64,000 nucleotides of DNA. Origin: Halorubrum salipaludis (GTDB taxonomy: Archaea; Halobacteriota; Halobacteria; Halobacteriales; Haloferacaceae). Shown here in pieces: positions 1-16,073 of the stretch. The notes beneath the pieces were generated by a model that worked only from the letters and a program-made list of their open reading frames with translations, ran no database searches and was not told where the DNA came from. The position numbers were made by a program, and so were the translations under genes. Numbering within the stretch: the first letter of the stretch is position 1; each line of letters begins with the position of its first letter. The stretch is taken from contig NZ_NSKC01000001.1 in assembly GCF_002286985.1 (NCBI RefSeq), positions 1 through 64,000 on the forward strand, read 5' to 3'.

Positions 1-243
1 CTCGCCGTACTTGTCGCGGGCGCTCTCGCCCGCGTAGACGCGCATCCACGCGATCGACCGGCCCGTGGCCTCGGCGGCCGCGTCCAGTACCTTCTGGGCG
101 GCCGGTCCCACGTCCGACCCGATCCCGTCGCCGTAAATGATCGGGATAATCGGGTTCTCCGGCACCGTCAGCTCTCCCGTCTCCTCGTCCGCCAGCTCGA
201 TCGCCTCGCCGTCCGCAGGGACGTCGACCTTCTCGTAGCTCAT
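1..243 (-). CDS. icd: Isocitrate dehydrogenase (NADP), N-terminal 81 codons
   Basis: The gene reads leftward out of the window, so only its first 81 codons are present. The visible N-terminus (MSYEKVDVPADGE, then NPIIPIIYGDGIGSDV and VLDAAAEATGRS) matches the conserved start of haloarchaeal NADP-dependent isocitrate dehydrogenase. That enzyme converts isocitrate to 2-oxoglutarate in the TCA cycle. GDGIG is the family's substrate/cofactor-proximal glycine motif. The ATG at 241-243 lies about 30 nt from a TATA box (GATTTTTAT on the minus strand, 271-280), which fits a leaderless transcript. It is probably housekeeping, but it sits beside a carboxylate-oxidation island whose products could enter the same cycle. 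Confidence 0.93.
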   Translation of the reverse strand, partial: MSYEKVDVPADGEAIELADEETGELTVPENPIIPIIYGDGIGSDVGPAAQKVLDAAAEATGRSIAWMRVYAGESARDKYGE

Positions 244-397: not shown

Positions 398-1825
398 TCA
401 GTCGTCGGCCGATTGGGGCGGTGCCTCCGAGACGTACTCGGCCGCGGTGTCCGCAGAGACGCGGCCGTAGACCGCCGCGTTCGTCAGCCCGGACCCGCCG
501 GGGTAGTTGTCGTAGAACAGTCCGCCCGTGACGTTGCCGGCCGCGAACAGGCCGGGGATGACGCTGTCGGTGGTGTCCAGCACCTCGCCGTCCGGCGTGA
601 TCGCGACCCCGCCGAAGGCGAACGTCATGCCGCCGGTGACCGGATAGCCGGTGAACGGCGGCTCGTCGAGGGGAAGCGCCCAGTTCGACTTGGGCGGCTC
701 GACGCCGGTCGCCGCGTTCCCGTCTAAGGCGTCCGGGTCGTAGGTCGACGCGGCGTCGTCGGCGCACGCGTCGTTGTACGCCTCGACGGTCTCGACCGCC
801 CGTTCCGGGTTCTCGATGTCGAGCCGCCGCACCAGCGCCTCGATCGAGTCCGCGGTGATCGCGCGGGAGGGCCCCATGTGCGCCACGTCGTCGACGACCT
901 TCGAGTCGACGACGATGAACGCCTCGTGGTACGGCTGTTCGAAGATCCGGCGACCAAACTTCGCGTACGTGTGCGCCCGCGAGTCCTCGCCCTCGTCGAC
1001 GAACCGCTCGCCGTCGTGGTTGAGGATGAGCCCGTACTGATACCCGTCGATCCGGGTGATTCCCCCCTCGACGTCGGGCGAGCCGGCGTCGATGATCGCC
1101 ATGTGGGCGTCGCCCCACTCGCCGTCGGACTTCGCGCCGGCGTCCATCGCGGAGTCGATCACCTCGCCGGTGTTGTACCGGCTCCCGCGGACCTTCATGT
1201 TCCCGTAGCCGGGGCCGAAGTACCGCGTCCGCTTCTCCTTGCTGGAGCCGTAATCGCCGGCGGCGAGGACGACGGCGTCGGCCTCGAACCGAACCCGGCG
1301 CCCGTCGACGAACCCGGACACCCCGGAGACGGAGCCGTCGTCGGCCCTGATCACGTCCTGTACCATCGCGTCGTACCGCACCTCCCCGCCGAGCGACTCG
1401 TAGTGCTCGACCAGGTCGTCGATCATCGTTTCGCCGTCGAGCCAGACGCGCCCCGCCGTGTATCCGGGATGGGGCGCCTGATACTCCCAGTCGAGGCCCA
1501 TCTCGGTGAGCCACTCGAAGGTGTCCGCGGCCTCCTCGGTGACCGTGCGGGCCAACTCGTTGTCGGCCCGGTAGTTCGTCGTCTTCATCAGGTCCGAGTA
1601 GAAGTCCGCGGCGGTGTAGTCCTCGACGTTGAACTCGACGTCGAGGTCGATGTCCGCCGTCGGGATCCGGAACGATTCGGTGAAGCGCGTGTGACCGCCT
1701 CGATGCGCTTCCGGAGACTTCTCGAGAACGATCACGGACTGGTCGCGTTCCGCGAGACGGATCCCCGCGGCGAGCCCGGCGATCCCGCAGCCGACGACGA
1801 CCGCGTCGTACTGTTCGGTAGACAT
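398..1825 (-). CDS. FAD-dependent dehydrogenase, TcuA / fumarate-reductase flavoprotein type
   Basis: This 475-aa protein has an N-terminal dinucleotide-binding motif ([13 protein letters not shown], about residues 9-21), the acidic end of beta-2 (VLEKSPEA), a GGHTRFTESFR segment, and the C-terminal FAD contact GGLFYDNYPGGSG. These are hallmarks of the fumarate reductase/succinate dehydrogenase flavoprotein family, nearest to the tricarballylate dehydrogenase branch. Members oxidise or reduce a C-C bond next to carboxylates. The substrate cannot be read from sequence. It is clearly paralogous to the protein at 12606-14015. No membrane anchor or haem motif is seen, so it is probably a soluble cytoplasmic enzyme. 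A TATA-like GGTATAAATATCC (minus strand) near 1891-1905 suggests a transcript with a short leader. Confidence 0.9.
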   Translation of the reverse strand: MSTEQYDAVVVGCGIAGLAAGIRLAERDQSVIVLEKSPEAHRGGHTRFTESFRIPTADIDLDVEFNVEDYTAADFYSDLMKTTNYRADNELARTVTEEAADTFEWLTEMGLDWEYQAPHPGYTAGRVWLDGETMIDDLVEHYESLGGEVRYDAMVQDVIRADDGSVSGVSGFVDGRRVRFEADAVVLAAGDYGSSKEKRTRYFGPGYGNMKVRGSRYNTGEVIDSAMDAGAKSDGEWGDAHMAIIDAGSPDVEGGITRIDGYQYGLILNHDGERFVDEGEDSRAHTYAKFGRRIFEQPYHEAFIVVDSKVVDDVAHMGPSRAITADSIEALVRRLDIENPERAVETVEAYNDACADDAASTYDPDALDGNAATGVEPPKSNWALPLDEPPFTGYPVTGGMTFAFGGVAITPDGEVLDTTDSVIPGLFAAGNVTGGLFYDNYPGGSGLTNAAVYGRVSADTAAEYVSEAPPQSADD

Positions 1826-1927
1826 GGATCTCTGTGACCGTCTCCGACTGGACCGCGAACCGCCGAAACGATTCCGCCGAACATGTGAAGGGATATTTAT
1901 ACCGGACGGTGGCGTCCCGATCGGTCG

Positions 1928-1973
1928 GCGGGGGGTGCGGCGGGATCCGGCGGGGGGGTGCGGCGGGATCCGG
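1928..1973. repeat. Tandem duplication of a ~23-nt G-rich unit
   Basis: Two adjacent copies of a unit containing GGGGTGCGGCGGGATCCGG lie between the hydroxyacid dehydrogenase stop and the FAD dehydrogenase promoter. The copies differ by one G in the G-run. It is one of several short post-gene tandem duplications in the window. Confidence 0.7.
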
Positions 1974-1984
1974 CGCGTAGAGCG

Positions 1985-2998
1985 TCAGTTCTCCTCGGGG
2001 TCGGCGGCCGCGTCGGAGCGCGTTCCCTTGCGCGGGTCGATCGCGACGAACCGCTCCGGGAGGGTGTCGCCGTCGAGGAACGCGAACGCACACTCCACGA
2101 GCGTCTCGATGATCGCCGAGCGCGCTCGGACCGACGACGCCGCGATGTGCGGCGTCGTCACGACGTTCTCGAAGTCGTGCAGCGGGGAGTCGGCCGGCAG
2201 CGGCTCGGTCTCGAACACGTCGAGGCCGGCACCGCCGATCGTCCCGGCCGCGAGCGCGTCGACGAGCGCCCCGGTGTCGACGATCGGTCCGCGGGCCGTG
2301 TTCACCAGCACGGCGTCGTCGTCCATCGCCGCGAGGGCCCGTTCGTCTATCATCCCCCGCGTCTCGGGAGTGTGCTCGGCGGTGACCACCACGGCATCGG
2401 GCTCCGAGAGCACGGTCTCGAAGTCGGTGAGCGTCGCGCCGGTGACCTGCGTGTCGATGTCGTGGACGTACGGGTCGTGGGCGTACACGTCGACGTTGAA
2501 CCCGTCGAGAAGCCCCGCGAGCCGGGACCCGACGTTGCCGAAGCCCACGATGCCGACGGACGTGCCGGCGACCGCGCTGGCGTTCGGCACCTCGTCGCGC
2601 CACTTCCCGGCCTCCAGCGCGCGCTGACCGATCAGGACGTTCCGCTTGACCGCCAGCAGCAGCGTCAGCGCGTGCTCGGCGACCGAGAGCGCGTTCATCC
2701 CCGGGGTGTACACGACCGTCACGCCCTCGTCCGCGGCGGCGTCGAGGTCGATCGTGTCGATCCCCGTCCCGATCTTCGCCACCAGCCGCAGCGAGTCGGC
2801 GTTCTCGAGCACCCGTCGCGTGACCGGGAGCCGGGACGTGGTAAAGAGGATCTCGACGCCGTCGAGCGCCTCGATCAGCGCCTCCTCGGTCGGCTCGACG
2901 CCGACTTCGAGCGCGAGGACATCGCCGACCTCGCGCTCGAGCACGTCTCGCGGCTTCACGTCCTGATCGACGAGCGCTCGCGGCGCTCCGCCGGTCAT
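1985..2998 (-). CDS. D-isomer-specific 2-hydroxyacid dehydrogenase (NAD)
   Basis: This 337-aa protein is of the D-3-phosphoglycerate / D-2-hydroxyacid dehydrogenase family, which reversibly oxidises a D-2-hydroxy acid to a 2-keto acid with NAD(P). The Rossmann motif GFGNVGS is near residues 152-158. The catalytic Arg is in NTARGPIVD and the catalytic His in TTPHIAASS, with the Glu in between in the usual order. The start is ATG 2998 because it overlaps the upstream uspA stop as ATGA; a start at 3034 would overlap uspA much further. It forms a two-gene operon with uspA, driven by the TATA box at 3461-3470. Its place in the carboxylate island suggests it handles a hydroxy-acid intermediate. It lacks the C-terminal ACT extension of true SerA, so serine synthesis is unlikely. 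Confidence 0.92.
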   Translation of the reverse strand: MTGGAPRALVDQDVKPRDVLEREVGDVLALEVGVEPTEEALIEALDGVEILFTTSRLPVTRRVLENADSLRLVAKIGTGIDTIDLDAAADEGVTVVYTPGMNALSVAEHALTLLLAVKRNVLIGQRALEAGKWRDEVPNASAVAGTSVGIVGFGNVGSRLAGLLDGFNVDVYAHDPYVHDIDTQVTGATLTDFETVLSEPDAVVVTAEHTPETRGMIDERALAAMDDDAVLVNTARGPIVDTGALVDALAAGTIGGAGLDVFETEPLPADSPLHDFENVVTTPHIAASSVRARSAIIETLVECAFAFLDGDTLPERFVAIDPRKGTRSDAAADPEEN

Positions 2999-3432
2999 TT
3001 CTCGTCCGGCCGAACGTGGGTGACGACCGGACACTCCGCGTTCAACAGCACGTCCTGAGTGACGCTGCCGAACAGTGCTTTGCCGACCGCGGACCGACGG
3101 CGACCGCCGACGCAGATGTAGCTGGCGTCCTGCTCGTTCGCGTACCGGACGAGCTCGTCGCCGGCGTCGCCGACGAGGCCGACGGCCTCGAAGTCGTCGG
3201 TCGTGCGGCTCGCGACCTCGTCGGCCGTCTCCTCGGCGAACGCCCGAACGTCGTCGACGGGGACGGTCTTGCCCGTGTCGCTGAGGCTGTCCTGTTCGAG
3301 ATCGCGGAACGCGGACTGGCTCAGCACGTGGACGACGTGGAGGTCCTCACCGAACGCGTCGGCGTGTTTCCGTCCCTCGATCACGGCGTTGCTCTCCCGG
3401 TCGAGCCGTTCGACTCCAGCGACGATTGTCAT
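2995..3432 (-). CDS. Universal stress protein, UspA family
   Basis: This 145-aa single-domain UspA protein carries the C-terminal nucleotide-binding signature (GGRRRSAVGKALFGSVTQ, then CPVVTHV), which indicates an ATP-binding type. The start is set at ATG 3430-3432, where MTIVAGVERLDRES begins the fold. An upstream in-frame start exists, but the TATA box at 3461-3470 is placed for a leaderless start at 3432. It is the first gene of an operon with the hydroxyacid dehydrogenase. Haloarchaea often pair Usp proteins with transporters or metabolic genes; a specific role here is not evident. Confidence 0.9.
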   Translation of the reverse strand: MTIVAGVERLDRESNAVIEGRKHADAFGEDLHVVHVLSQSAFRDLEQDSLSDTGKTVPVDDVRAFAEETADEVASRTTDDFEAVGLVGDAGDELVRYANEQDASYICVGGRRRSAVGKALFGSVTQDVLLNAECPVVTHVRPDEK

Positions 3433-3460
3433 GGTTGCCAATCCATGCGTGACGAGCACC

Positions 3461-3470
3461 CTTATAGTTT
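3461..3470 (-). promoter_or_regulatory. TATA box for the uspA operon
   Basis: The minus strand reads AAACTATAAG about 30 nt upstream of the ATG at 3432. This is the spacing of an archaeal TATA box serving a leaderless transcript. It lies in the 136-nt divergent region between uspA and the DASS transporter. Confidence 0.65.
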
Positions 3471-3568
3471 TCAGTGGATCCCGGCCGCCGCCGGGCTCAC
3501 GTGTTGCTCACCGTCGAGTTTGCTTGCTCCGTCGCGTTTTTGAGGTGTACCCGCGTTGGTTGGGAGAC

Positions 3569-5098
3569 ATGCCTGCCTCCAAGGGCGGATCGCGCGCGTC
3601 CATCGCCGGTTTGTCGCTCCCGAGCTTCGCCGTCGCGGGGATCTGGGTCTCGATCGCCGTGCTCGTTGGCGGCGCCCTCGCGCCGCCGCTCGGCGGTCTC
3701 GAGCGAGAGATGCAGCTCGTGCTCGCCGTCTTCCTCTTCGCGCTCGTGTTGTGGCTGACCGAAGCCGTCCCCTACGTGGTGTCGAGCACGGCCGCGTCGG
3801 TCCTGCTGTTCGCTCTCGACCTCGTCCCGACGTTCGGTGACGCGGTCAGCGGGTTCGCCTCGACGCTCGTGTTCTTCCTGCTGCTGCTGTTGCTCCTCGG
3901 CGGGGCGATCTCCGAGGTCGGACTGGGGAAGGTCGTCGCCGGGCGGATGCTCTCGACCCGGAGCACACCGCGGACGAGCGTTCGCTCGCTCGCGGCCCAC
4001 ATGTTCGGGCTCTCGCTTTTGATGCCGTCGGCGGTCGCTCGGACCGTGACGTTCATCCCCGTCGTCAACCGGATGACGGACGCGTACGGGCTTCCGGACG
4101 ACGGGACGTTCCGCAAGGCCTGCTTCATCGTGCTCGGCCACATCAACCCGATCGGGTCGATGATGCTGATGACCGGCGGGGGGATGGCGATCATCACCTC
4201 ACAGCTGATCAACGAGTCCGTCCGGACGGTCACCTGGGTCCAGTGGGCCGTGTACATGATCCCGCCGATGATCCTCCTGTTCTGGCTGTCGACGGTCAGC
4301 GCGCTCGTCGTGTACGGCGTCGACGACGACCTGACGCTCGAGTCGAACGGCTCCGACGGGGACGCCGGAAACGGGGAGCACGCGGAACGCGACGGCGATG
4401 ACGCGCTCAACGCGACCGGAGGCGATGACGCGCTCGACGCGAACGGGATCGGCGATCGGAGCGGCGGCGGAGTCACGCTGACGCGGGATCAGCGGATCGT
4501 CAGCGTCGTCATGCTCGGCGCGGTGGTGGCGTGGATCGCCGGCTCCTTCGTCGGGCTTCCGACCATCGTCCCGGCGGCCGCGGCGGTCGCGGTCCTCTCG
4601 GTCCCGGGCGTGGGCATCGTCGACCGGGACCTGATCGCCGACGTCAGCTGGGGCATCCTCTTCCTCATCGGCGCGATGTTCTCCATCCTCGACGCGATGG
4701 AGACGACCGGAACGCTCGATTACGTCGTCGAGACGCTCATCGAGGTTGTCCCGTTCGCGGCGATGGCGCCCTGGCTGGTGATCGGGACCCTCCTCGCGCT
4801 CGCCGTCTTCATCCGCTCGTGGTTCTCGACGGCGTCGGCCGCGATCGTGGTCGCCCTGCCGATCATCATGGAGTTCGCGACCGTCCTCGGCCTCAACCGG
4901 CTCTACCTGGCGCTGTCGGTGCTGATCGCCGTCGGCTCGACGACCTTCTTCCCGTTCAACACGACCTCGGTGCTGCTCTCGTACGACAAGGGACCGCTGG
5001 GGCTCCGGGAGGTGCTCGTCTTCGGGCTCGTGACGATGGTCCACGGCGTCGTCGTGATCGCGCTGTCGTGGCTCTTCTACTGGCCGCTCGTCGTGTGA
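3569..5098 (+). CDS. DASS/SLC13-family carboxylate or sulfate transporter
   Basis: This 509-aa polytopic membrane protein of the divalent anion:sodium symporter (DASS, CitT/SLC13) family has two homologous halves of hydrophobic helices. Family elements include LWLTEAVPYVV, the MLMTGGGMA region and SSTFFPFNTT-like sequence near the C-terminus (GSTTFFPFNTTSVLL). Members take up succinate, malate, citrate or sulfate with sodium. Between the halves, about residues 262-297, is a hydrophilic Asp/Asn/Gly-rich loop (repeats of GDDALNA / GDDALDA) that looks haloarchaea-specific. The start at 3569 is chosen because the family begins there and longer reading enters the uspA gene on the other strand. It is divergent from the uspA/hydroxyacid dehydrogenase operon, which suggests shared control. 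Confidence 0.9.
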   Translation: MPASKGGSRASIAGLSLPSFAVAGIWVSIAVLVGGALAPPLGGLEREMQLVLAVFLFALVLWLTEAVPYVVSSTAASVLLFALDLVPTFGDAVSGFASTLVFFLLLLLLLGGAISEVGLGKVVAGRMLSTRSTPRTSVRSLAAHMFGLSLLMPSAVARTVTFIPVVNRMTDAYGLPDDGTFRKACFIVLGHINPIGSMMLMTGGGMAIITSQLINESVRTVTWVQWAVYMIPPMILLFWLSTVSALVVYGVDDDLTLESNGSDGDAGNGEHAERDGDDALNATGGDDALDANGIGDRSGGGVTLTRDQRIVSVVMLGAVVAWIAGSFVGLPTIVPAAAAVAVLSVPGVGIVDRDLIADVSWGILFLIGAMFSILDAMETTGTLDYVVETLIEVVPFAAMAPWLVIGTLLALAVFIRSWFSTASAAIVVALPIIMEFATVLGLNRLYLALSVLIAVGSTTFFPFNTTSVLLSYDKGPLGLREVLVFGLVTMVHGVVVIALSWLFYWPLVV

Positions 5099-5538: not shown

Positions 5539-7029
5539 CTAGCCGAGCCGCCGTTCGAGCGCGGGCTTGACGTACGGTCCGAGGAGGATCACGAGGATCC
5601 CCGCCGTGATGAGCAGCGACAGCGGCTTGGTCACGAAGATGTCGTAGGAGCCGCCGGATATCTGCAGCGACCGCATGAGGTTCTCCTCGGCGATCGGCCC
5701 CAGAACGACCCCGAGCACGAACGCGATGATCGAGTAGTTCTTCCGGACCATGATGTACCCGAGGAACCCGAGGACGAGGACGGTGATCACGTCGACCCAG
5801 TTGGACCGGAGGGTGTAGCCGCCGACCATCGATAACACGAGGATCAGCGGGATGATGACGTGGGTGTCGACCTGGGTGAGCTTCGCCAGGCGCGTCACGA
5901 CGAGCACGCCGATCAGGACGATGAAGATGTTACCGACCAGCAGCGCGATCAGGAACGCGTACGTGATGTGGAGGTCGGCCTCGAACAGCTGCGGACCGGG
6001 GCGCAGCCCGTGCATCAGCAGGCCGCCGAGCAGCACGGCGGTCGAGCCGCTGCCGGGGATCCCGAACGAGATGGTCGGGATCAGCGACCCGCCGATGGTG
6101 CCGTTGTTCGACGCCTCGCTGGAGATGACGCCGAGGGGCTCGCCGTTGCCGAACAGGCCGGGGTTGTCGGAGCTCCGCATCGCCTCGCCGTACGCGAGGA
6201 AGTTCGAGACGGTCGCGCCGGCGCCCGGAATCGCGCCGATGAACATCCCGATGTAGCCGGATTTGATGATTTGCCACGGGTGCGAGAGCGTCTCGCGAAC
6301 GCCGGAGAGCGTGTTTCCGGACAGGTCGATCTCGGCGTCGGCGATCCCGCCCTCCTGGCCGGCGAGCTTCAGCATTTCCGCGACCGCGAACATCCCGATG
6401 AGCGCCGCGATGAAGTCGATCCCGTCGTAGAGCCCGAGGCTCCCGAAGGTGTACCGGAGCTCCGGGGAGTTCGGAGCGATGCCGACGGTCGTGATCAGCA
6501 GGCCGGCCGCGCCGGCGACGAGCCCCTTGACCATGGACCCCTCGGCGACGATGGTGATCATCGAGAGCCCGAGGATGGCCATCAGGAAGTACTCTGGCGA
6601 GCCGAACAGCAGCACGACCTCGATCAGGATCGGCGAGATGAGAAGCAGCGTGAGCACCGAGAGGAACCCGGCGGTCGCGGACGCGGTCGCGGACATCGAG
6701 AGCGCGTCGACCGCGCGGCCCTGTTTCGCCATCGGATACCCGTCGAACGTCGTCGCGGCCGCTCCGCCCGTCCCCGGGACGTTCACGAGGATGGCGGAGA
6801 TGCTGCCGCCGTACATCGCGCCGCTGTACATGCTGACGAGGAGGATGATCGCGTTGATCGGCCCCAGCGGAAGCGTCAGGGGCAAAACGATCGCCATCCC
6901 GAGGGAAGAGCCGATCCCCGGGAGCGCGCCGCCGATCATGCCGAGCGTCAGCCCAATCACTACCCAGATCGGCGTGGGCCAGCTGAAGACGATCGAGAGC
7001 GCCTCCGAGAAGGCGGCGAGCGCCGCCAT
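5539..7029 (-). CDS. tctA: Tripartite tricarboxylate transporter, large membrane subunit TctA
   Basis: This 496-aa, roughly 12-helix TctA (DUF112) protein forms the transport channel of the tripartite tricarboxylate transporter. The two diagnostic glycine-rich motifs are present: GALPGIGSSLGMA near residues 34-46, and YGGSISAILVNVPGTGG followed by FDGYPMAKQGRA near residues 73-107. Its ATG (7027-7029) abuts the tctB stop directly (TAGATG), so the two are translationally coupled. With TctB and the binding protein TctC it would take up a di- or tricarboxylate driven by ion gradient. The substrate is not determined by sequence. Confidence 0.96.
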   Translation of the reverse strand: MAALAAFSEALSIVFSWPTPIWVVIGLTLGMIGGALPGIGSSLGMAIVLPLTLPLGPINAIILLVSMYSGAMYGGSISAILVNVPGTGGAAATTFDGYPMAKQGRAVDALSMSATASATAGFLSVLTLLLISPILIEVVLLFGSPEYFLMAILGLSMITIVAEGSMVKGLVAGAAGLLITTVGIAPNSPELRYTFGSLGLYDGIDFIAALIGMFAVAEMLKLAGQEGGIADAEIDLSGNTLSGVRETLSHPWQIIKSGYIGMFIGAIPGAGATVSNFLAYGEAMRSSDNPGLFGNGEPLGVISSEASNNGTIGGSLIPTISFGIPGSGSTAVLLGGLLMHGLRPGPQLFEADLHITYAFLIALLVGNIFIVLIGVLVVTRLAKLTQVDTHVIIPLILVLSMVGGYTLRSNWVDVITVLVLGFLGYIMVRKNYSIIAFVLGVVLGPIAEENLMRSLQISGGSYDIFVTKPLSLLITAGILVILLGPYVKPALERRLG

Positions 7030-7647
7030 CTAGAACACCCCGCTCGTGACGAGCAGTTGACCGCGGTCGAGCGGGACGCCGAGCACCGACATGAATCCGT
7101 ACGCGATCGCGAACCCGACGACGGCGAGCACCGCCGTGAGGTACCGGGGGAGCTTGAACCAGTAGCCGTACACGGCGACGAAGATCGGCGTCGCCCAGAG
7201 GATGCCGATCGCGAAGCCGAGCGCGGCGTATCCGGTCGCGATGAGGCCGGTGAACACCGAGTCGTGGATCGGGCGTCCGACGGTGGACAGCTCGTTCCGG
7301 TCCGCGTCGGGCTCCGTCGCGCCGGATTCCGTCGCGTCGTCTCCCGACTGTTGGCGCCCTTCGACCTCCTGTTGCCGCTTCTCGAACTCCTCGTCGGCCT
7401 CGAAGACGCCCGCCGACTCCTCCACGGCGGCGCGGAGCGGCCCCGGGAGGTACTTCGAGAAGAACAGCAGGAGCGCACCGACGAACACGACCGATCCCGT
7501 CAGCCGCGGGAACCGCGCGGCTGAGCTGATGTCGAACCGGAACGTTTCGGCGAGCGCGAGACCGGATCCGAGAATGAGGACGATCAGGAGGAACCGCTCC
7601 TGATCGAACCGCTCGGACAGTCGTCGGTACAGCGATTTACTTGACAT
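7030..7647 (-). CDS. tctB: Tripartite tricarboxylate transporter, small membrane subunit TctB
   Basis: This 205-aa TctB protein has four predicted hydrophobic helices in two pairs, separated by a long acidic cytoplasmic segment (about residues 75-120, rich in E, Q and D). The segment is longer than in bacterial TctB (about 150 aa in total), as is common in haloarchaea. It is the first gene of the tctBA pair and has its own TATA box (7674-7683) about 27 nt upstream of ATG 7647. It can therefore be transcribed separately from the binding-protein gene that precedes it. Confidence 0.92.
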   Translation of the reverse strand: MSSKSLYRRLSERFDQERFLLIVLILGSGLALAETFRFDISSAARFPRLTGSVVFVGALLLFFSKYLPGPLRAAVEESAGVFEADEEFEKRQQEVEGRQQSGDDATESGATEPDADRNELSTVGRPIHDSVFTGLIATGYAALGFAIGILWATPIFVAVYGYWFKLPRYLTAVLAVVGFAIAYGFMSVLGVPLDRGQLLVTSGVF

Positions 7648-7673
7648 GCTTGCGTGGTACTGGAGCGTGGGTG

Positions 7674-7683
7674 ATATTAATAC
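7674..7683 (-). promoter_or_regulatory. TATA box for tctBA
   Basis: The minus strand reads TGTATTAATATCAC, centred about 30 nt before the tctB ATG, inside the 96-nt gap after tctC. The position implies a leaderless tctBA transcript independent of tctC, so binding protein and channel can be made in different amounts. Confidence 0.65.
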
Positions 7684-7743
7684 ACATGGTCTCGACTGGT
7701 GGTGTGGCGGACGACAACTCCGCGGCGGGAAAGCGAGGGAGGT

Positions 7744-8775
7744 CTACTCGTCCGCGGCCTCGCGGACCGCTTCGAGGTCGACCTGTTCGGGGATCTGTTC
7801 GAACGCGTCGGCGACCGCCTGGGACGCGCTCTCGGGCCCGCCGTACTCGACGACGTTGCCGGTCTCTTCGGACCAGCTCTGCACCTCGTCCGCCTGAAGG
7901 GCGGCTTCGAGGGCCTCGGTCAGCACCTGGATCTGGTCCTCGGAGGTCCCCTCCGGAGCGAAGATGCCGCGAACGAGCTGCCCGAGGAAGTCGATGTTGT
8001 CGTATCCGAGTTCCGTGGTGCTCGGAACGTCCGGGAAGACCTCAGACCCCTGGCTCGACAGACACGCGATCACGTCGAGGCGGTCGTCCTCGACCGCGCC
8101 GGCGGCGCCGGTGTCGGTGGCGATCGCGGCCGGCACCTCGTCGGAGATGGTCGCCTGTACCGCCGGGCCGGTCCCGTCGTAGCCGACGTACCGGTCCCAC
8201 TGGAAGTCGTAGCTGTCGTTCCCCTGCATCAGGAGGGCGAGCACGTGGTCGACGCCCCCGCGCTCCTTGCCCGAGAAGATCTCCAGTTCACCGTCGGCGT
8301 ACCGGCTCAGCAAGTCGTCGAAGTCCTCGATCTCGTAGCTGGGGTTGGCGACGACGACGAACGGCGTCCGGGCGTACGTCCCGACGCCCTCGAGTTCGGT
8401 CATGTCGTACTCCGGCGGGTTGACCATGGCCGAGACCGGGGTCGACGGCGGGTTGAACCCCCCGATCGTGTAGCCGTCGGGGTCGGCGTTGTACAGCTGG
8501 CCGGTGCCGCGGAGCGACGCCGCGCCGGGGACGTTCTCGATCGCGATGTTGGTCCCGAGCTCGTCCGCCATGTGGCTGATGAACTGGCGCGCGTACGTGT
8601 CGGTCCCGCCGCCCTCCGAGAAGGGGATGATGTACGTGATGTCCCCGTCGGGGTACTCGCCGTCGCCCCCACCGGAACAGCCCGCGAGGCCGGTCATCGC
8701 CGCTGCGGACGCGGCGCCGGCGTACTTGACGTAGTCTCGACGTGACACAGACGATCGATCGTGATTGTCTCCCAT
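7744..8775 (-). CDS. tctC: Tripartite tricarboxylate transporter substrate-binding lipoprotein TctC
   Basis: This 343-aa protein has a Tat signal (SRRDYVKYAG) followed by a lipobox (LAGC, Cys about 33) and a Ser/Gly/Asp linker. It is therefore a lipid-anchored extracellular binding protein, as usual for haloarchaea. The mature part follows the TctC/Bug family: the opening ITYIIPFSEGGGTDTYAR contacts the ligand carboxylate and is followed by ENVPGAASLRGT. Bug proteins bind carboxylates and some aromatic acids such as nicotinate, so the ligand stays open. A weak TATA-like stretch (TTCAAATAGG, minus strand) lies near 8800-8810. The order is tctC, tctB, tctA on one strand. Confidence 0.95.
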   Translation of the reverse strand: MGDNHDRSSVSRRDYVKYAGAASAAAMTGLAGCSGGGDGEYPDGDITYIIPFSEGGGTDTYARQFISHMADELGTNIAIENVPGAASLRGTGQLYNADPDGYTIGGFNPPSTPVSAMVNPPEYDMTELEGVGTYARTPFVVVANPSYEIEDFDDLLSRYADGELEIFSGKERGGVDHVLALLMQGNDSYDFQWDRYVGYDGTGPAVQATISDEVPAAIATDTGAAGAVEDDRLDVIACLSSQGSEVFPDVPSTTELGYDNIDFLGQLVRGIFAPEGTSEDQIQVLTEALEAALQADEVQSWSEETGNVVEYGGPESASQAVADAFEQIPEQVDLEAVREAADE

Positions 8776-8943: not shown

Positions 8944-9921
8944 TCAGAAGAACGTGAACTCCCCGTCCTCGACGACGACCTCGCCGTCGAGCTCGAGCGT
9001 CGGCTCGGCCATCATCGCGTCGAAGTGAACCGGCGCGCGGGTGGTGCCGCCGAGGTTGCTGCTCGTTCCGATCCCGAAGTGGACGTTGCCGTAGCGGCCG
9101 TGATCGTTCGAGAACCAGCCGTTGAACTCGGGGCACTCGGGGTTCATGCCGACCGCGAGCTGGGCGATGTTGTAGACCGCCGGATCGTCGTGTTCCGCCC
9201 AGACGCGCTCGATCTTCTTCGCCTCCTTGCCTCCCTCGACGGAGGTGACCGCGCCGTCCTCGATCTCCATCCGGACCGGCTCCTCCAGGACGCCGATGTC
9301 GAGGTTCGGGATCGCGCCGTCGAAGACGACGGTCCCGTCGGTCGTTCCCTCGACCGGGGAGATGTTCGCCTCGATGTGCACCAGCGCCGTGAACTCGCCG
9401 GGTTCGTCCGCGATCCCCGGGTGCGCGTTGCCGTCGCGCCCCTCGAGGCCGACAGTCACGTCGGTCCCCTGCGGGGAGGTGACGCGCGCCTCGCTCGCCT
9501 CGGAGAACTTCCGCGCCATCTCCTCGCAGTGGGGGCGCATCCCCTCGTAGTCGGCGTACAGCCCGCCGCGGACGAGCTGTTCGTCGGTGAACTTCACCAT
9601 GCTGATGACGCGCGCGCCGTTCGCCTTCGCCTCGGCGGTCGCGCTGGAGTGCGTGATCGACCGGTGGACCGGCGTGATGATCACGTCGGCCTCCATCATC
9701 GCCGCCGCGACCGTGTCCTCGGGCTCGTTGCCGTCGTACTCGCGCGGCTCCATCATCGTCATCGTCACGTTGGCGTCGCGCTCGTTGGCCGCCGCGGCGA
9801 CGCGCTCCGCCACGTCCGCGACCTGCCAGTCGGTCACGACCAACACGTCCTCGCCGGCCTCGATCGCGGCGCAGGTGTCGACGACGATACTCGCACCTTT
9901 CATCTCTTGGATTGAGTCCAT
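8944..9921 (-). CDS. M29 aminopeptidase / NicX-like metalloenzyme, paralogue 1
   Basis: This 325-aa protein belongs to the M29 leucyl aminopeptidase superfamily, which also contains 2,5-dihydroxypyridine 5,6-dioxygenase (NicX). Visible family features are a TSPQGTDVTVGLEG substrate segment, AVTSVEGG, YGNVHFGIG (His about 281), and the C-terminal H-x-D in APVHFDAMM (His 299, Asp 301). Where M29 peptidases have a metal-binding Glu (in GE.AL) and NicX has His, this protein has Gln (IAQLAVG, about residue 254). The altered ligand argues against ordinary peptidase activity. A minus-strand TATA (CGTATTTGTAAC, near 9943-9954) supports the ATG at 9921. It is divergent from its paralogue at 10240. The neighbouring carboxylate genes suggest ring cleavage or amide hydrolysis in one pathway; this is inference. 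Confidence 0.82.
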   Translation of the reverse strand: MDSIQEMKGASIVVDTCAAIEAGEDVLVVTDWQVADVAERVAAAANERDANVTMTMMEPREYDGNEPEDTVAAAMMEADVIITPVHRSITHSSATAEAKANGARVISMVKFTDEQLVRGGLYADYEGMRPHCEEMARKFSEASEARVTSPQGTDVTVGLEGRDGNAHPGIADEPGEFTALVHIEANISPVEGTTDGTVVFDGAIPNLDIGVLEEPVRMEIEDGAVTSVEGGKEAKKIERVWAEHDDPAVYNIAQLAVGMNPECPEFNGWFSNDHGRYGNVHFGIGTSSNLGGTTRAPVHFDAMMAEPTLELDGEVVVEDGEFTFF

Positions 9922-10239
9922 ACACGGAGAACGGACAGCCGGTTACAAATACGTTCCTGAAACGGTCGAATTCGATCGTGTAGGTTACGAGGTCCCGTCC
10001 GCCGGTCGGGGGTCGCCGACCGCAGAACGACATCGGCGCCCGCACCGGGCTCGACCTCTCGCGCTCCACGACTGAACGAGCCTCACCGAGCCTGCGGTGC
10101 AGACGGTCCGGCGACCGTATAGCAACAACTGATTGAAACGGGAAATCAGTTTAATTCTTCATATTAAATCATTGGAGACTGTCGGCGGGATCCTTCACCG
10201 GTGTGTTTATTATATCCGAACGAATCTGGTAAATCGTTC
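9922..10239. promoter_or_regulatory. Divergent intergenic region between the two M29/NicX-like genes
   Basis: The 318-nt stretch holds back-to-back promoters. On the minus strand CGTATTTGTAAC near 9943-9954 serves paralogue 1. On the plus strand TTTATTATATCC (10205-10216) lies about 27 nt before ATG 10240 of paralogue 2. The plus-side 100 nt is markedly AT-richer than its surroundings (around 10120-10170). No gene is seen. Confidence 0.6.
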
Positions 10240-11214
10240 ATGTTAGACGTCGAAATGGCGGCGGCAGCACGGGGTATCGTCGAGGACTGTCTCGACGTCC
10301 AGCCCGGCGAGGAGGTCCTCGTCATCGCGGACGCGAGGAAGGAGCGAGTCGCGCGGAGCATCGCGCGCGCCGCGTCGGGCGCGGGCGCCGAAGCGATCAC
10401 GACGACCATGCCGCTGTTAGAGAGCCACGGCAACGAGCCGCCGGAGACGGTGGCCGAAGCGATGGCCGCCGCGGACGTGGCGTTCACCTGTACGAGCCAC
10501 GCGATCACGCACACGCGGTCGCGGCTGGCGGCCGCGGAGGCCGGCACGCGGTTCGGCATCCTCCGAAGCGTCACCGAGGACATGATGGTCGAGGGCGCGA
10601 TGAGCGTCGACTTCGAGGAGCTCCGCCGACGGACCGAGGCGGTCCGCGACGTGCTCGACGCGGCCACCGAGGCCCACGTCACGAGCGACAAGGGGACGGA
10701 CGTCTCCTTCAGCCTGGAGGGCTGCTCGGCGTTCTCGCTGGACGGCTACTACCACGAGAACTACGGCTTCGCGACGCTCCCGCCGGGAGAGTCGCCGACC
10801 CACCCGGCGGAGGGGACCGCGAACGGCGAGATCGTGATCGACGTCTCGATGGACAACCTCGGGCAGGTCGACGAGCCGATCACCCTCCACGTCGAGGACG
10901 GCTTCGTCACCGACGTCACCGGCGGCGAGGACGCCGACGAGCTCCGTCGCATCATCGACGAGAACGACGAGAACGCCGGGAACATCGCGGAGTTCGCGAT
11001 CGGCACCAACCCCGAGGCGAAGCTCATCGGCAACCTCGCGGAGGACAAGAAGAAGGCGGGGACCGTCCACTTCGCGGTCGGCGACAACGAGTCGCTCGGG
11101 GGCACGCTCAAAAGCGACATCCACCTCGACGGGGTCGTCCGGACGCCGACCGTCCGGCTCGACGGCGAGGTCGTCGTCGACGACGGCGAGCTCGTCGAAT
11201 CGCTGTTCGACTGA
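10240..11214 (+). CDS. M29 aminopeptidase / NicX-like metalloenzyme, paralogue 2
   Basis: This is a 324-aa paralogue of the divergent gene at 8944-9921. It has TSDKGTDVSFSLEG, then IAEFAIGTNPEAK with Glu (about 251) at the position that is Gln in paralogue 1, GTVHFAVGDNESLGG (His about 277), and IHLDG (His about 295, Asp about 297). It therefore keeps the fuller M29-type metal set. The start is taken at ATG 10240, not at the upstream in-frame start at 10201, because the TATA box at 10205-10216 would lie inside the longer form and places transcription start at about 10240. A strong hairpin plus T-run terminator follows at 11226-11249. Whether it is a peptidase, amidase or ring-cleavage dioxygenase cannot be settled from sequence. 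Confidence 0.85.
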   Translation: MLDVEMAAAARGIVEDCLDVQPGEEVLVIADARKERVARSIARAASGAGAEAITTTMPLLESHGNEPPETVAEAMAAADVAFTCTSHAITHTRSRLAAAEAGTRFGILRSVTEDMMVEGAMSVDFEELRRRTEAVRDVLDAATEAHVTSDKGTDVSFSLEGCSAFSLDGYYHENYGFATLPPGESPTHPAEGTANGEIVIDVSMDNLGQVDEPITLHVEDGFVTDVTGGEDADELRRIIDENDENAGNIAEFAIGTNPEAKLIGNLAEDKKKAGTVHFAVGDNESLGGTLKSDIHLDGVVRTPTVRLDGEVVVDDGELVESLFD

Positions 11215-11341: not shown

Positions 11342-12448
11342 TCAGTCGAGGACGATCTGCGCGGGGCCGAGCGCGTCGTGTGCGCCCTTGTCGAGCGTGA
11401 CGTCGACGACGGTTCCGAACGAGTCGAGGCCGTCGAACTCGTGGGTGACGTACTCGCCGATGGGGACCGCGCCGCTCGCGACGAGCTCGCCCGCGAGCGT
11501 CCCCGTGTCGGTCCCCGGGCCGAGGTCGGCGACCCCCTTCCGCGGGTTCTCCCAGCGGACGGCCTTCGATCTGGCTGATCGGGGGGTCATCTCGACGTCG
11601 CCGGAGATGTGACCGACCTGCAGCACCGTCCCGCCCCGGCGGGCCGCCCGGAACGCCTGTGCCAGGGGGTCGTCCCCCTCGGTCGCGTGCGTCTGATCGC
11701 CGCCGACCGCCTCGATGACCACGTCGGCCCCGAGGCCGCCGGTGGCCTCGCGGACCGCGTCGACCGGGTCGGTCTCGGTCGCGTCGATCGGGACCGCGCC
11801 GTTGGCCGCCGCGATCTCCAGCGGGCGGTCGCGGACGTCCGCGGCGTACACCGTCGCGGCCCCGAACCGCTCCGCGAGCAGGGCGCACTGGAACCCCATG
11901 ACGCCGGCGCCGACGACGAGCACGTCGTCGCCGGGGTCGATCTCGGCGTCCGCCACGCACAGCACGGAGCTCGCGAGGGGCTGGAGCGCGGCCCCCTCCG
12001 CGTCCGAGACGCCCTCGGGGACCGGCCGGAGGGGCTCGGTAGGGAGCCGGACGGACTCCGCGAGCGCGCCCGGCCGGTCGTACCCGATCGCCTCGGTGTC
12101 CGGACAGTAGTTCTCGTAGCCGGACCGGCAGTACGGGCACTCCCCGCAGTGGATCTTGCCGGGCGCGTACACGCGGTCGCCGACCTCGTAACCCTCGACG
12201 CCCGGACCGCACTCGGCGACGACTCCGCAGAACTCGTGGCCGAACAGCCTCGCGCCGGGCTCCTCGTCCCGGATCCGCCGTCTCACAGCGTCGTAGTGCG
12301 CGACCGACTCGCCGCGGTAGAGCAGGCACTCGGTCACGCTCAGCTGGACCCGCGACACGTCGATCAGGACCTCTCCCGGACCGGGCTCCGGGCGGGGGAC
12401 GTCGATCACGTCGAACGACTCGAACTCGTCTATGACGACTGCGTCCAT
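11342..12448 (-). CDS. Zinc-dependent medium-chain alcohol dehydrogenase
   Basis: This 368-aa protein is of the zinc MDR family. Catalytic zinc ligands are visible as Cys about 41 (TECLLYRG) and GHEF (His 71, Glu 72). The structural zinc site is CGECPYC...YC (Cys 101, 104, 107, 115). The NAD(P)-binding motif is VVGAGVMG, about residues 175-182. Such enzymes oxidise alcohols or polyols to aldehydes or ketones. The start is ATG 12446-12448 because a minus-strand TATA box (GGATATATTCG, near 12472-12481) lies 27 nt upstream. It is divergent from the FAD dehydrogenase-prpF pair, which suggests co-regulation. Confidence 0.92.
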   Translation of the reverse strand: MDAVVIDEFESFDVIDVPRPEPGPGEVLIDVSRVQLSVTECLLYRGESVAHYDAVRRRIRDEEPGARLFGHEFCGVVAECGPGVEGYEVGDRVYAPGKIHCGECPYCRSGYENYCPDTEAIGYDRPGALAESVRLPTEPLRPVPEGVSDAEGAALQPLASSVLCVADAEIDPGDDVLVVGAGVMGFQCALLAERFGAATVYAADVRDRPLEIAAANGAVPIDATETDPVDAVREATGGLGADVVIEAVGGDQTHATEGDDPLAQAFRAARRGGTVLQVGHISGDVEMTPRSARSKAVRWENPRKGVADLGPGTDTGTLAGELVASGAVPIGEYVTHEFDGLDSFGTVVDVTLDKGAHDALGPAQIVLD

Positions 12449-12605
12449 ACCGCCCACCTCGACGGCCGCACGAATATATCCTCTGGCGGGAACGGGGCGT
12501 TCCCCGACGACGGCGAATTCCCCCGACGGCGGCAGTGCATGCGGCTGACGACGACGGCGAAGGGACGAAACGTCTATGTCCGTTCATCATAGATAATCAG
12601 TGGAG

Positions 12606-14015
12606 ATGCAAATCGTCACCGACCAGGATGTCGTCGTCGTAGGCTGTGGGATCGCCGGACTGAGCGCGGCCAACCGCGCGGTCGAGCAGGGGTTAGACGT
12701 CACCGTTCTGGAGAAGTCGCCGAAGGACAAGCGAGGGGGGCACACGCGGTACAGCGAGTCGTTCCGGGTCGCGTCGTCGGACTCTGACCTCGAGGAGTAC
12801 GGCTACGAGTACAACATCGACGACTACACGCCCGACGACTTCTACGCGGACATCATGAAGCAGACGAACGGGCGGGCCGACGAGGACCTGGCCCGGACCA
12901 TCGTCGACAACATCGGCCCCACGGTCGACTGGCTCACCGAGCGCGGCGTGAGCTGGGACATGGAGCCGCTCAACGTCGGGTACACGGTCGCGCGGACGTT
13001 CTTCGACGGCGAGGAGCTCGTCGCGGACCTCGTGGAGGCCGCCGAGGAGCAGGGCGCGACGTTCGAGTACCGCACCGAGGCCCGCGAGATCCTGTTCGAC
13101 GACGGGGCGGTGTCCGGGCTCCGCGCCCGCAACGACGACGGCGACGTCGAGTACCGCGCCGACGCCGTGGTCGTCGCCGCCGGCGGCTACGAGTCGAGCG
13201 AGGAGAAGCGGACCCGGTACTACGGCTCCGACTACGACGCGATGAAGGTCCGCGGCAGCCGGTACAACACCGGCGAGGGGATCGAGATGGTCCTCGACGC
13301 GGGCGCCCGCGCGGACGGGCAGTGGGGCGGGGCCCACATGGCGCTCATCGACAGCGAGTCGCCCGACTACGAGGGCGGCGCGAACCGTGTCGACGGGTAC
13401 CAGTACGGCGTGCTGTTGAACAACGACGGCGAGCGCTTCTTCGACGAGGGCGAGGACGCCCGCGCCCACACGTACGCCAAGCTCGGCCGGATCATCTTCG
13501 AGGAGCCCGGTCACGAGGCGTTCATCGTCATCGACGACCCCCTGAAAGAGCACATGCGCGCGACCGGACCGGGCGGCTGGGTGACCGGCGACACGGTCGA
13601 GGAGGTGCTCTCCGAGCTCGGCTGCGAGGAGCCCGAGGAGGGGGCCGCGACCGTGGACGCGTTCAACGCGGCGACGGACCCCGGGGAGTTCGACCCCGAC
13701 TCGCTCGACGGGAACCACACGGACGGACTCGATCTCGAGAAGTCCAACTGGGCGCTGCCGCTCGACGAGCCGCCGTACCACGGGTACCGCGTCACCGGCG
13801 GGATCACGTTCGGCTTCGGCGGCGCGGCGACGGACGACCGCGCCCGCGCGCTCGACACGATCGGCCGTCCGATCCCCGGGCTGTACGTCGCGGGCAACAC
13901 CACCGGCGGGCTGTTCTTCGACAACTACCCGGGCGGGACCGGTCTCGCCAACGGGGCCGTGTTCGGGAAGATCGCCGCCGAAGAGACGGCCGAGTACATC
14001 GAGGGAGCAGAATGA
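12606..14015 (+). CDS. FAD-dependent dehydrogenase, TcuA-like, paralogue 2
   Basis: This is a 469-aa paralogue of the protein at 398-1825, with the same motif order: [16 protein letters not shown] at the N-terminus, [43 protein letters not shown], and [18 protein letters not shown] at the C-terminus. The family is fumarate reductase/tricarballylate dehydrogenase-like. A GTG at 12600 could also start it, adding two residues; ATG 12606 is preferred. Its stop overlaps the ATG of the prpF-like gene (ATGA), so the two products are made together and probably act in sequence. One attractive reading is FAD-dependent desaturation of a carboxylate followed by isomerisation of the new double bond. That is inference from context. 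Confidence 0.9.
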
Positions 14016-15157
14016 GCGGCGAACGAGTCGGCGACCAGCGCGCGATCGAGTGTTCCATCGTCCGCGGCGGCACGAGCAAGGGCGTGTTCATCCCCCGAGA
14101 GAACCTGCCGACGGAGGACCAGGACGAGGCGATCCTCTCGCTGTTCGGCAGCCCCGACGACAGACAGATCGACGGGCTCGGCGGCGCGACGTCGACGACG
14201 TCGAAGCTGATGGTCGTCTCCGAGAGCGACCGCGAGGGGATCGAGATCGACTACACGTTCGGACAGGTGGCCGTCGAGGACGCGGTCGTCGACTACGGCG
14301 GCAACTGCGGGAACCTCACCTGCGCGATCGGGTCGTTCGCCGTCGACGAGGGGATGGTCCCGGTCGATCCGGACGACGACACGGTGACGGTGGAGCTGTA
14401 CAACACGAACACCGGCGCGGAGATCACCCAGACCGTGCCGCTGTGCGACGGCCGCGCGGCGAGCGTCGGCGACTTCAAGATCCACGGCGTCCCCGGCACC
14501 GGCGCGAAGATCGACACGACGTTCCACGACCCGGCCGGCGCGATGACCGACGGGCTGTTCCCGCTCGGCGGCCCGACGATCGAGATCGACGTCGACGGGG
14601 AGACGATCGAGACGACCGTGCTCGACGTGACGACGCCGATCGCCTTCGTCCGCGCGGCGGACATCGGGCTCACGGCCACCGAGGGTCGCGCGGAGATCGA
14701 CGGCGACGCGGACCTCCTCGAACGGCTCGAACGGATTCGGGGGACGGTGGCCGTCGAACTCGGCTTCGTCGACGACCCCGACGAGGCCTCGATCGAGACG
14801 CCCGGCTACCCGAAGCTCGTCTTCGTGGCGCCGCCGACGGACTACACGACGCCGGAGGGAGGCGACGTCTCGGCCGAGGAGATCGACCTGACGGCGAGGT
14901 ACATGAGCATGGGGAAGCTCCATCCGGTGTACGCCGTCACCGGCGTCTCCTGTACCGCGGCGGCCGCGCAGATCCCCGGAACGATCCCCAACGAGGTCGC
15001 CTCGGACCCCGGTTCGACGGTCACGCTCGGGCATCCGAAGGGCACGATGGCCGCGACCGCCGAGGTCGATCGGTCGGTCCCCGCGGTCGAGTCGGTGACC
15101 GTCTACCGGACGCAGCGTCGCCTGATGGAAGGGACCGGCTACTACCGGCCGGAGTGA
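14012..15157 (+). CDS. PrpF-family aconitate/methylaconitate-type isomerase
   Basis: This 381-aa PrpF (DUF453) protein has the diaminopimelate-epimerase-like fold. It shows [12 protein letters not shown] near residues 17-27 and two candidate acid/base residues: Lys about 65 (TSKLMVV) and Cys about 99 ([11 protein letters not shown]). The C-terminal half has the GHPKGTM element. Relatives isomerise double bonds in 2-methyl-aconitate, trans-aconitate or 4-oxalomesaconate. The start at 14012 gives an ATGA overlap with the FAD dehydrogenase; reading further upstream would run through that gene in another frame. Pairing with a TcuA-like dehydrogenase and a Tct transporter points to breakdown of an unsaturated or branched tricarboxylate. 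Confidence 0.93.
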
Positions 15158-15320: not shown

Positions 15321-16073
15321 ATGGAACACACGCCGGATCGCGGGCGGGTCAAGGCGGTCGACACGACGCTCGACGTCGTCCAATTTCTGCACCGGGCGGG
15401 ATCGGCGAGCATCGAGGAGGTCGCCGAGGCCGTCGGGGTCGGGACCAGCACGGCGCATCGTCACCTCACGACGCTTCACGAGCGGGGATACATCGTTCGC
15501 GAGGGGAACGAATACGAGCTGAGCCTCCGGTTCCTGACGCACGGCGGACGGCGACGGGAGACGCTGCCGGCGAACGAGCTGATACACAGGAAGGTCAGAC
15601 AGCTGAGCGGGGACACCTCCGAACGCGTCCAGTTCATCACGGAGGAGCACGGCGAGCGCGTGTACATGTACACCCACGCGGGCCCGGACGCGGTCAAGAC
15701 GGACGCGACGATCGGCAAGCGCGGGCCGCTTCACGTGAGCGCGGCCGGAAAGGCGATCCTAGCGAACCTCCCGACCGAGCGCCGGGAGCGGATCCTCGAC
15801 GGGGTCGCCGCGAACGGAACCGCCGAACGGGAGGCGCTCGACGAGGAGCTCGAAGCGGTCAGGGAGCGGGGATACGCGTTCAACGACGAGGAGTCGACAT
15901 CCGGGCTCCGCGCGGTCGGCGTCCCGGTCCGGTACGAGAGCGACACGGTGCTCGGGGCGATCAGCGTGTCGGGACCCGCCAACCGGCTGACCGGCGAGTA
16001 CTTCCGCGAGGAACTGCCGAACCTCCTCTTGGGCACGGTCAACGAGATCGAGCTGAACATCGAGTACCTGTAA
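15321..16073 (+). CDS. IclR-family transcriptional regulator
   Basis: This 250-aa protein has an N-terminal winged helix (about residues 8-70; the recognition region is GVGTSTAHRHLTTLHERGY) and a C-terminal IclR effector domain. Effector-domain landmarks include KRGPLHVSAAGKAILA, EALDEELEAVRERGYAFNDEES and VGVPVRY...LGAISVSGP. IclR proteins usually sense small carboxylates or aromatic intermediates and control adjacent catabolic genes. The TATA box ends about 22 nt before ATG 15321, so the mRNA should be leaderless. Identical palindromes sit before and after the gene, which suggests autoregulation. It is the only dedicated regulator in the island. Confidence 0.94.
   Translation: MEHTPDRGRVKAVDTTLDVVQFLHRAGSASIEEVAEAVGVGTSTAHRHLTTLHERGYIVREGNEYELSLRFLTHGGRRRETLPANELIHRKVRQLSGDTSERVQFITEEHGERVYMYTHAGPDAVKTDATIGKRGPLHVSAAGKAILANLPTERRERILDGVAANGTAEREALDEELEAVRERGYAFNDEESTSGLRAVGVPVRYESDTVLGAISVSGPANRLTGEYFREELPNLLLGTVNEIELNIEYL

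Follow-up and report, generated by a model that had tools for sequence, protein, structure and literature searches.

A glutamine at the bridging-glutamate position marks a multi-phylum branch of the M29/NicX superfamily, represented in a carboxylate gene cluster of Halorubrum salipaludis

Two genes in the first 64,000 nucleotides of a contig of Halorubrum salipaludis (NZ_NSKC01000001.1; this whole stretch is called the window here) encode relatives both of the M29 metallo-aminopeptidases and of NicX, a 2,5-dihydroxypyridine 5,6-dioxygenase. In one of these, P1, a glutamine occupies the position where M29 enzymes have a glutamate that bridges two metals; the other, P2, has the glutamate (Table 1). 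We call homologs with the glutamine "Q-types" and those with the glutamate "E-types." P1 and P2 are best read, with a probability of roughly 0.55, as separate metalloenzymes of one catabolic cluster, with P1 a competent enzyme, though not a peptidase, whose metal centre is altered. This reading is built upon the mapping of the metal ligands, the fixation of the glutamine, a histidine that accompanies it, the separate ancestry of the two genes, their linkage, and the existence of Q-types that have no Glu relative.

Table 1. Genes and codons of interest in the window
Feature	Coordinates	Strand	Remarks
P1, Q-type M29/NicX-superfamily metalloenzyme, 325 aa	8944..9921	-	ligands Glu184, Gln254, His281, His299, Asp301
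P1 His299-Phe300-Asp301	9019..9027	-	equivalent of M29 His378/Asp380, NicX His318/Asp320 (metal B)
P1 His281 codon	9079..9081	-	equivalent of M29 His345 (metal A); Leu300 in NicX
P1 Gln254 codon CAG	9160..9162	-	position of M29 bridging Glu316/AmpS Glu319, NicX His265
P1 Glu184 codon	9370..9372	-	equivalent of M29 Glu250 (metal A)
P1 His167 codon CAC	9421..9423	-	Q-type-specific; position of NicX substrate-binding Glu177
P2, E-type relative	10201..11214	+	324 aa from ATG 10240, or 337 aa from GTG 10201; Glu184, Glu251, His277, His295, Asp297 (324-aa numbering)
P2 Glu251 codon GAG	10990..10992	+	bridging position
D-2-hydroxyacid dehydrogenase family gene	1985..3034	-	
ORF with DASS/SLC13 family carboxylate transporter domain	3203..5098	+	real start probably further in
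TctC-TctB-TctA tripartite carboxylate transporter genes	5539..8775	-	adjoin P1; conserved across loci
Zinc-type alcohol dehydrogenase family gene	11342..12457	-	
FAD dehydrogenase, TcuA-like	12600..14015	+	one NCBIfam TcuA model: 435.4 against cut-off 369; under another's cut-off
PrpF-family isomerase gene	14015..15157	+	Pfam; boundaries approximate
IclR-family regulator	15321..16073	+	

P1 and P2 share 38% identity across 322 positions, and two further family members lie on other contigs of the same genome. The nearest named match to P1 (97% identity) is from Halorubrum. Several orthologues of P2 start at the equivalent of its ATG, which is therefore probably the true start, rather than the upstream GTG.

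To assign ligands, a profile built from 60 family members was aligned, using HMMER, to the solved structures of AmpT, PepS, AmpS, and NicX. In this alignment Glu184, Gln254, His281, His299, and Asp301 of P1 correspond to Glu250, Glu316, His345, His378, and Asp380 of AmpT. The motif IA[Q/E] falls upon AmpT Glu316 and NicX His265, the motif VHF upon AmpT His345, and the motif HxD upon AmpT His378/Asp380 and NicX His318/Asp320. This bears out the initial annotation, which placed Gln254 of P1 and Glu251 of P2 at the site that holds Glu in M29 peptidases and His in NicX; a structure-based check of this third-ligand position offered no alternative conserved residue. That annotation also had VHF and HxD kept as metal positions. 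Both are indeed kept in P1 and P2, but VHF is not common to NicX, which has Leu300 there. The ligands that it listed hold, but the list missed one, since M29 Glu250 is also present, as Glu184, in both proteins.

Thus, P2 has Glu at both Glu ligand positions and a complete M29 set of five metal ligands (E,E,H,H,D), while P1 has four of the five, with Gln at the bridge. Neither has the catalytic tyrosine of the M29 enzymes (Tyr352); P1 has Ser288 in its place, and P2 has Glu284. The six-residue M29 signature EEHYHD, consequently, is complete in neither; it reads E-Q-H-S-H-D in P1 and E-E-H-E-H-D in P2.

What each position does is known from the peptidases. In AmpS, Glu319 and a water bridge both metals, Glu253 and His348 hold one metal, and His381 and Asp383 hold the other (PMC7023490). 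These roles, together with the alignment, imply that in P1 the bridge is altered while both half-sites survive. NicX went further. It is described as a homologue of the metallo-aminopeptidases that presumably gave up one of its metal sites (PMC7356986); here, the bridge is changed and one half-site is gone (PMC7910607). The three NicX-type sequences compared have Phe at the position of M29 Glu250, and in NicX the histidine of VHF is replaced by Leu300. This loss of the metal A ligands is absent from P1, where Glu184 and His281 remain. Conversely, the set of NicX iron ligands (His265, Ser302, His318, Asp320) is incomplete in P1 (Gln254, Gly283, His299, Asp301) and in P2 (Glu, Ala, His, Asp).

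The predicted structures agree with the proposed relationship to both M29 and NicX. The models (pLDDT 96.0 for P1 and 95.0 for P2) share the NicX fold over their full length, with Z scores of 37.2 (317 residues, rmsd 2.4) and 35.3 (317 residues, rmsd 3.0), respectively, against about 22-25 for the M29 peptidases. NicX (7cn3, 7cup) is closest to both in fold and length. Both metal half-sites of AmpT, AmpS, and PepS (2ayi, 1zjc, 4icq) are also found in P1 and P2, and their bridging Glu is also found in P2. NCBIfam returned no match to either protein at E up to 1, and among the papers listed in literature searches on these genes and clusters none gave a function for the Q-type.

Is the glutamine more than an accident of one genome? 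A P1 orthologue (78% or more) is present in 13 of 292 haloarchaeal genomes surveyed, with Gln in every one. Gln254 is fixed in all 50 Q-types collected, and the other four ligands are retained in all 50. Sequencing error, chance, and local oddity are rejected by this fixation across the clade. The hosts are haloarchaea together with bins and isolates named Alphaproteobacteria, Nitrospinota, Nitrospirota, Methylomirabilota, Acidobacteria, and Armatimonadetes. Among 134 collected sequences, the five-ligand patterns were EEHHD (83), EQHHD (40), FHLHD (3, NicX-type), and others (8).

At least one M29-like match (E up to 1e-10) was found in all 292 haloarchaeal genomes; the common haloarchaeal form, for example L003 (G000:C27:35184-36092), shows E-E-H-A-H-D, and we found no function for it. 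Relatives in Neorhizobium (L072, 968-1951, minus strand) and Salipiger (L074, 9845-10837, plus strand) have R-x-E in place of HxD, changing the metal B ligands. One deltaproteobacterial bin has four M29-like genes in two tandem pairs (L112, 2216-4187 and 8090-10177) beside TRAP-type transporter genes. A different divergent M29-like pair (L025, 182-1192, minus strand, and 1438-2421, plus strand), from what is probably a Natribaculum breve plasmid (G137), has the full EEHYHD in both members.

A second residue accompanies Gln254. A scan of P1 positions found His at position 167 in 40 of 40 Q-types and in none of 94 other sequences. Among 25 sequences fetched later, many of them kin of the earlier ones, His was present in 10 of 10 Q-types and in 1 of 15 E-types. 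This gives 50 of 50 Q-types and 1 of 109 others, and in the final scan of P1's columns none apart from 254 itself separated the Q-types from the others better. The single exception (L182, 591-1571, minus strand) shares its locus with a Q-type and with hydantoinase A/B genes. In the haloarchaeal E-type clade nearest to P1, position 167 is Leu or Phe. His167 is predicted to lie in the pocket of P1, as is His91, which matches NicX His105; it aligns with NicX Glu177, which hydrogen-bonds the substrate and, when changed to Ala, leaves 2.7% of the activity (PMC7910607). The two residues changed jointly only two to three independent times on the tree (median p 0.5). Their association is thus suggestive, with too few independent changes for a significance test.

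The initial annotation had viewed P1 and P2 as a pair that diverged at one ligand. Their history argues otherwise. The tree used here has 71 rows, 14 of the original 85 having been omitted as long or odd, and position 254 was removed. In it, the 13 Q rows group with 3 E rows in one clade (support 100/98). A constrained clade of P1 with P2 is rejected (AU p 3.98e-06), and with it a recent duplication; P1 and P2 were therefore brought together, not split. The two come from separate, old subfamilies. Holding all Q rows in one unbroken clade is also rejected, if mildly (AU p 0.0208). A haloarchaeal E-type clade is placed beside P1, meaning either one gain of Q followed by a loss, or more than one gain.

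The two genes nevertheless keep company. P2 (E up to 1e-75) is found in 18 of the 292 haloarchaeal genomes, on the same contig as P1 in all 13 genomes that have P1, and without P1 in the other five. In the 23 haloarchaeal loci with P1 that have distinct sequences, P2 always lies within 9 kb. The divergent arrangement that the initial annotation emphasized holds as to orientation, which is opposite in 21 of 23, but not as to direct adjacency under one promoter region, which is rejected as a conserved feature, since the genes are less than 400 bp apart in only 5 of 23. Elsewhere PrpF, TcuA-like, and other genes lie between them. Linkage to P2 and to the TctABC, PrpF, and TcuA-like genes supports the suggestion that both belong to one catabolic cluster.

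Neighbours were typed from capped searches and crude gene calling, so that missing neighbours are weak evidence; with this in mind, TctA, TctC, PrpF, TcuA-like, and DASS genes were each seen in 9 of 10 haloarchaeal loci typed by clustering, and the 17 bacterial Q-type loci had TctA in 9, MmgE/PrpD in 8, and hydantoinase A and B in 6. Hydantoinase A and B are also near the Q-types of G550 and G514. The fetched flanks, some of them short, held no second family member in 16 of the 17 bacterial loci. In Neorhizobium, a second relative with a changed HxD lies some 10 kb from the Q-type; in G774 and G550, a Q-type and an E-type share one locus. These neighbours speak for a cluster that imports and degrades a small acid; in bacteria, genes close by suggest amide or ring-opening chemistry. 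On citrazinate/aconitamide as a pathway, the papers listed in a literature search included none.

Two observations on the edge of the neighbourhood may be added. The window has a second TcuA-like FAD dehydrogenase paralogue at 398-1825 (minus strand), in addition to that of Table 1. At the window edge (1-243, minus strand) is the N-terminal fragment of an isocitrate/isopropylmalate dehydrogenase family gene; a comparable fragment lies near the cluster in G105 (L056), where the top score is to an NADP isocitrate dehydrogenase.

What might these enzymes do? From this pattern we infer metal number, oligomer, reaction, and substrate only conditionally. The cluster would handle an imported small carboxylated compound using two metal-dependent enzymes. 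P2, because it retains the complete set of M29 metal ligands, is likely to hold two metals and to be a hydrolase acting on a small amide- or imide-like substrate, not on peptides. P1, its bridging Glu replaced by Gln, half-sites A (Glu184, His281) and B (His299, Asp301) retained, and a new His167 at the substrate site, would most likely form its own homo-oligomer having one metal or two unbridged metals. Its step would differ from that of P2, and may be a hydrolysis or a lyase-type bond breaking.

One alternative, which we consider unlikely, makes P1 an O2-dependent, single-iron, ring-cleaving enzyme of the NicX type, with Gln254 serving, next to His299 and Asp301, as a neutral ligand, and His167 in the place of Glu177 at the substrate. 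NicX is, after all, the closest solved fold (Foldseek E 3.8e-29), has a neutral ligand (His265) at the same position, and has its Glu177 at the site of the other changed residue. The hosts of Q-types include haloarchaea, Alphaproteobacteria, and Nitrospinota; several of the nearest bacterial E-types come from Synergistes and Desulfobacterales, which are anaerobic groups. However, the metal A ligands that NicX lost are retained in P1, and P1 lacks NicX Ser302 and the substrate residue His189 (Gly283 and Ala179 stand in their places). Further, true NicX genes have neighbours annotated as Asp/Glu racemase or maleate isomerase, deformylase or alpha/beta hydrolase, and amidohydrolase, and none of these was found among the Pfam-typed neighbours of P1.

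Somewhat less likely still is the heteromer with one active partner that the initial annotation offered, where P1 is the ligand-impaired member. This idea is kept because a related fold (Z 14-16) gives a precedent: CgnB and CgnE of crocagin biosynthesis (6zsv, 6zsu), two linked M29-like proteins in one cluster with differing metal sites, one of them broken, both of which are needed (PMC10070186). The tight linkage of P1 and P2 in haloarchaea, where P1 never occurs without P2, also fits a complex, and is a counter-point to the reading preferred here; so are the Q/E pairs of G774 and G550, the second relative at the Neorhizobium locus, and the one E-type with His167. But P1 is not eroded. Its other ligands are invariant and its Gln is fixed, unlike the differing losses in the second Cgn copies; no metal was seen in CgnE, whose losses fell on other ligands, while P1 retains four. 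Further, the Cgn copies were reported as duplications, while P1 and P2 come from distant subfamilies. Neither needs the other: P2 is without P1 in 5 of 18 genomes, and a Q-type is the only family member found (E up to 1e-10) in 8 of 17 bacterial genomes, seven of these being metagenome bins that are possibly incomplete and one an isolate, Aquamicrobium zhengzhouense. A Q-type, therefore, need not depend on a Glu partner. The other half of the original suggestion, that P1 and P2 catalyze two steps of one pathway, fares better.

That both are ordinary M29 aminopeptidases is very improbable: P2 does exceed the curated Pfam cut-off for M29 (PF02073; 63.8 against 27 bits), and its orthologue is annotated "aminopeptidase," but P1 (23.5) falls below it, both proteins have about 325 amino acids against about 400 for M29 and lie among carboxylate genes rather than genes for peptide use, and in LmAmpII a single change at any of the six EEHYHD residues abolishes activity (PMC7023490), where P1 lacks two and P2 one. 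The doubt cast earlier on the aminopeptidase label was, therefore, well placed.

Separate enzymes in one cluster being the preferred reading, a larger view may be offered, if tentatively. The Q-type branch could be an undescribed subfamily whose metal centre adds a third type to the M29/NicX superfamily, having lost the bridge, kept both half-sites, and gained a paired His in the substrate pocket. It would then stand, as a living intermediate, between two-metal peptidases and one-iron NicX, and would act by a chemistry of its own, perhaps with O2, on ring or amide compounds that are carboxylated. In NicX, a two-metal peptidase fold already serves a dioxygenase. A branch spread over several phyla in which only the bridging carboxylate is lost lets one study, in nature's own variants, how the site of a two-metal hydrolase can become something else, and residues 254 and 167 are a clear pair for swapping. 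For the family at large, this means that an "aminopeptidase" label on a short relative from a catabolic cluster is not to be relied on.
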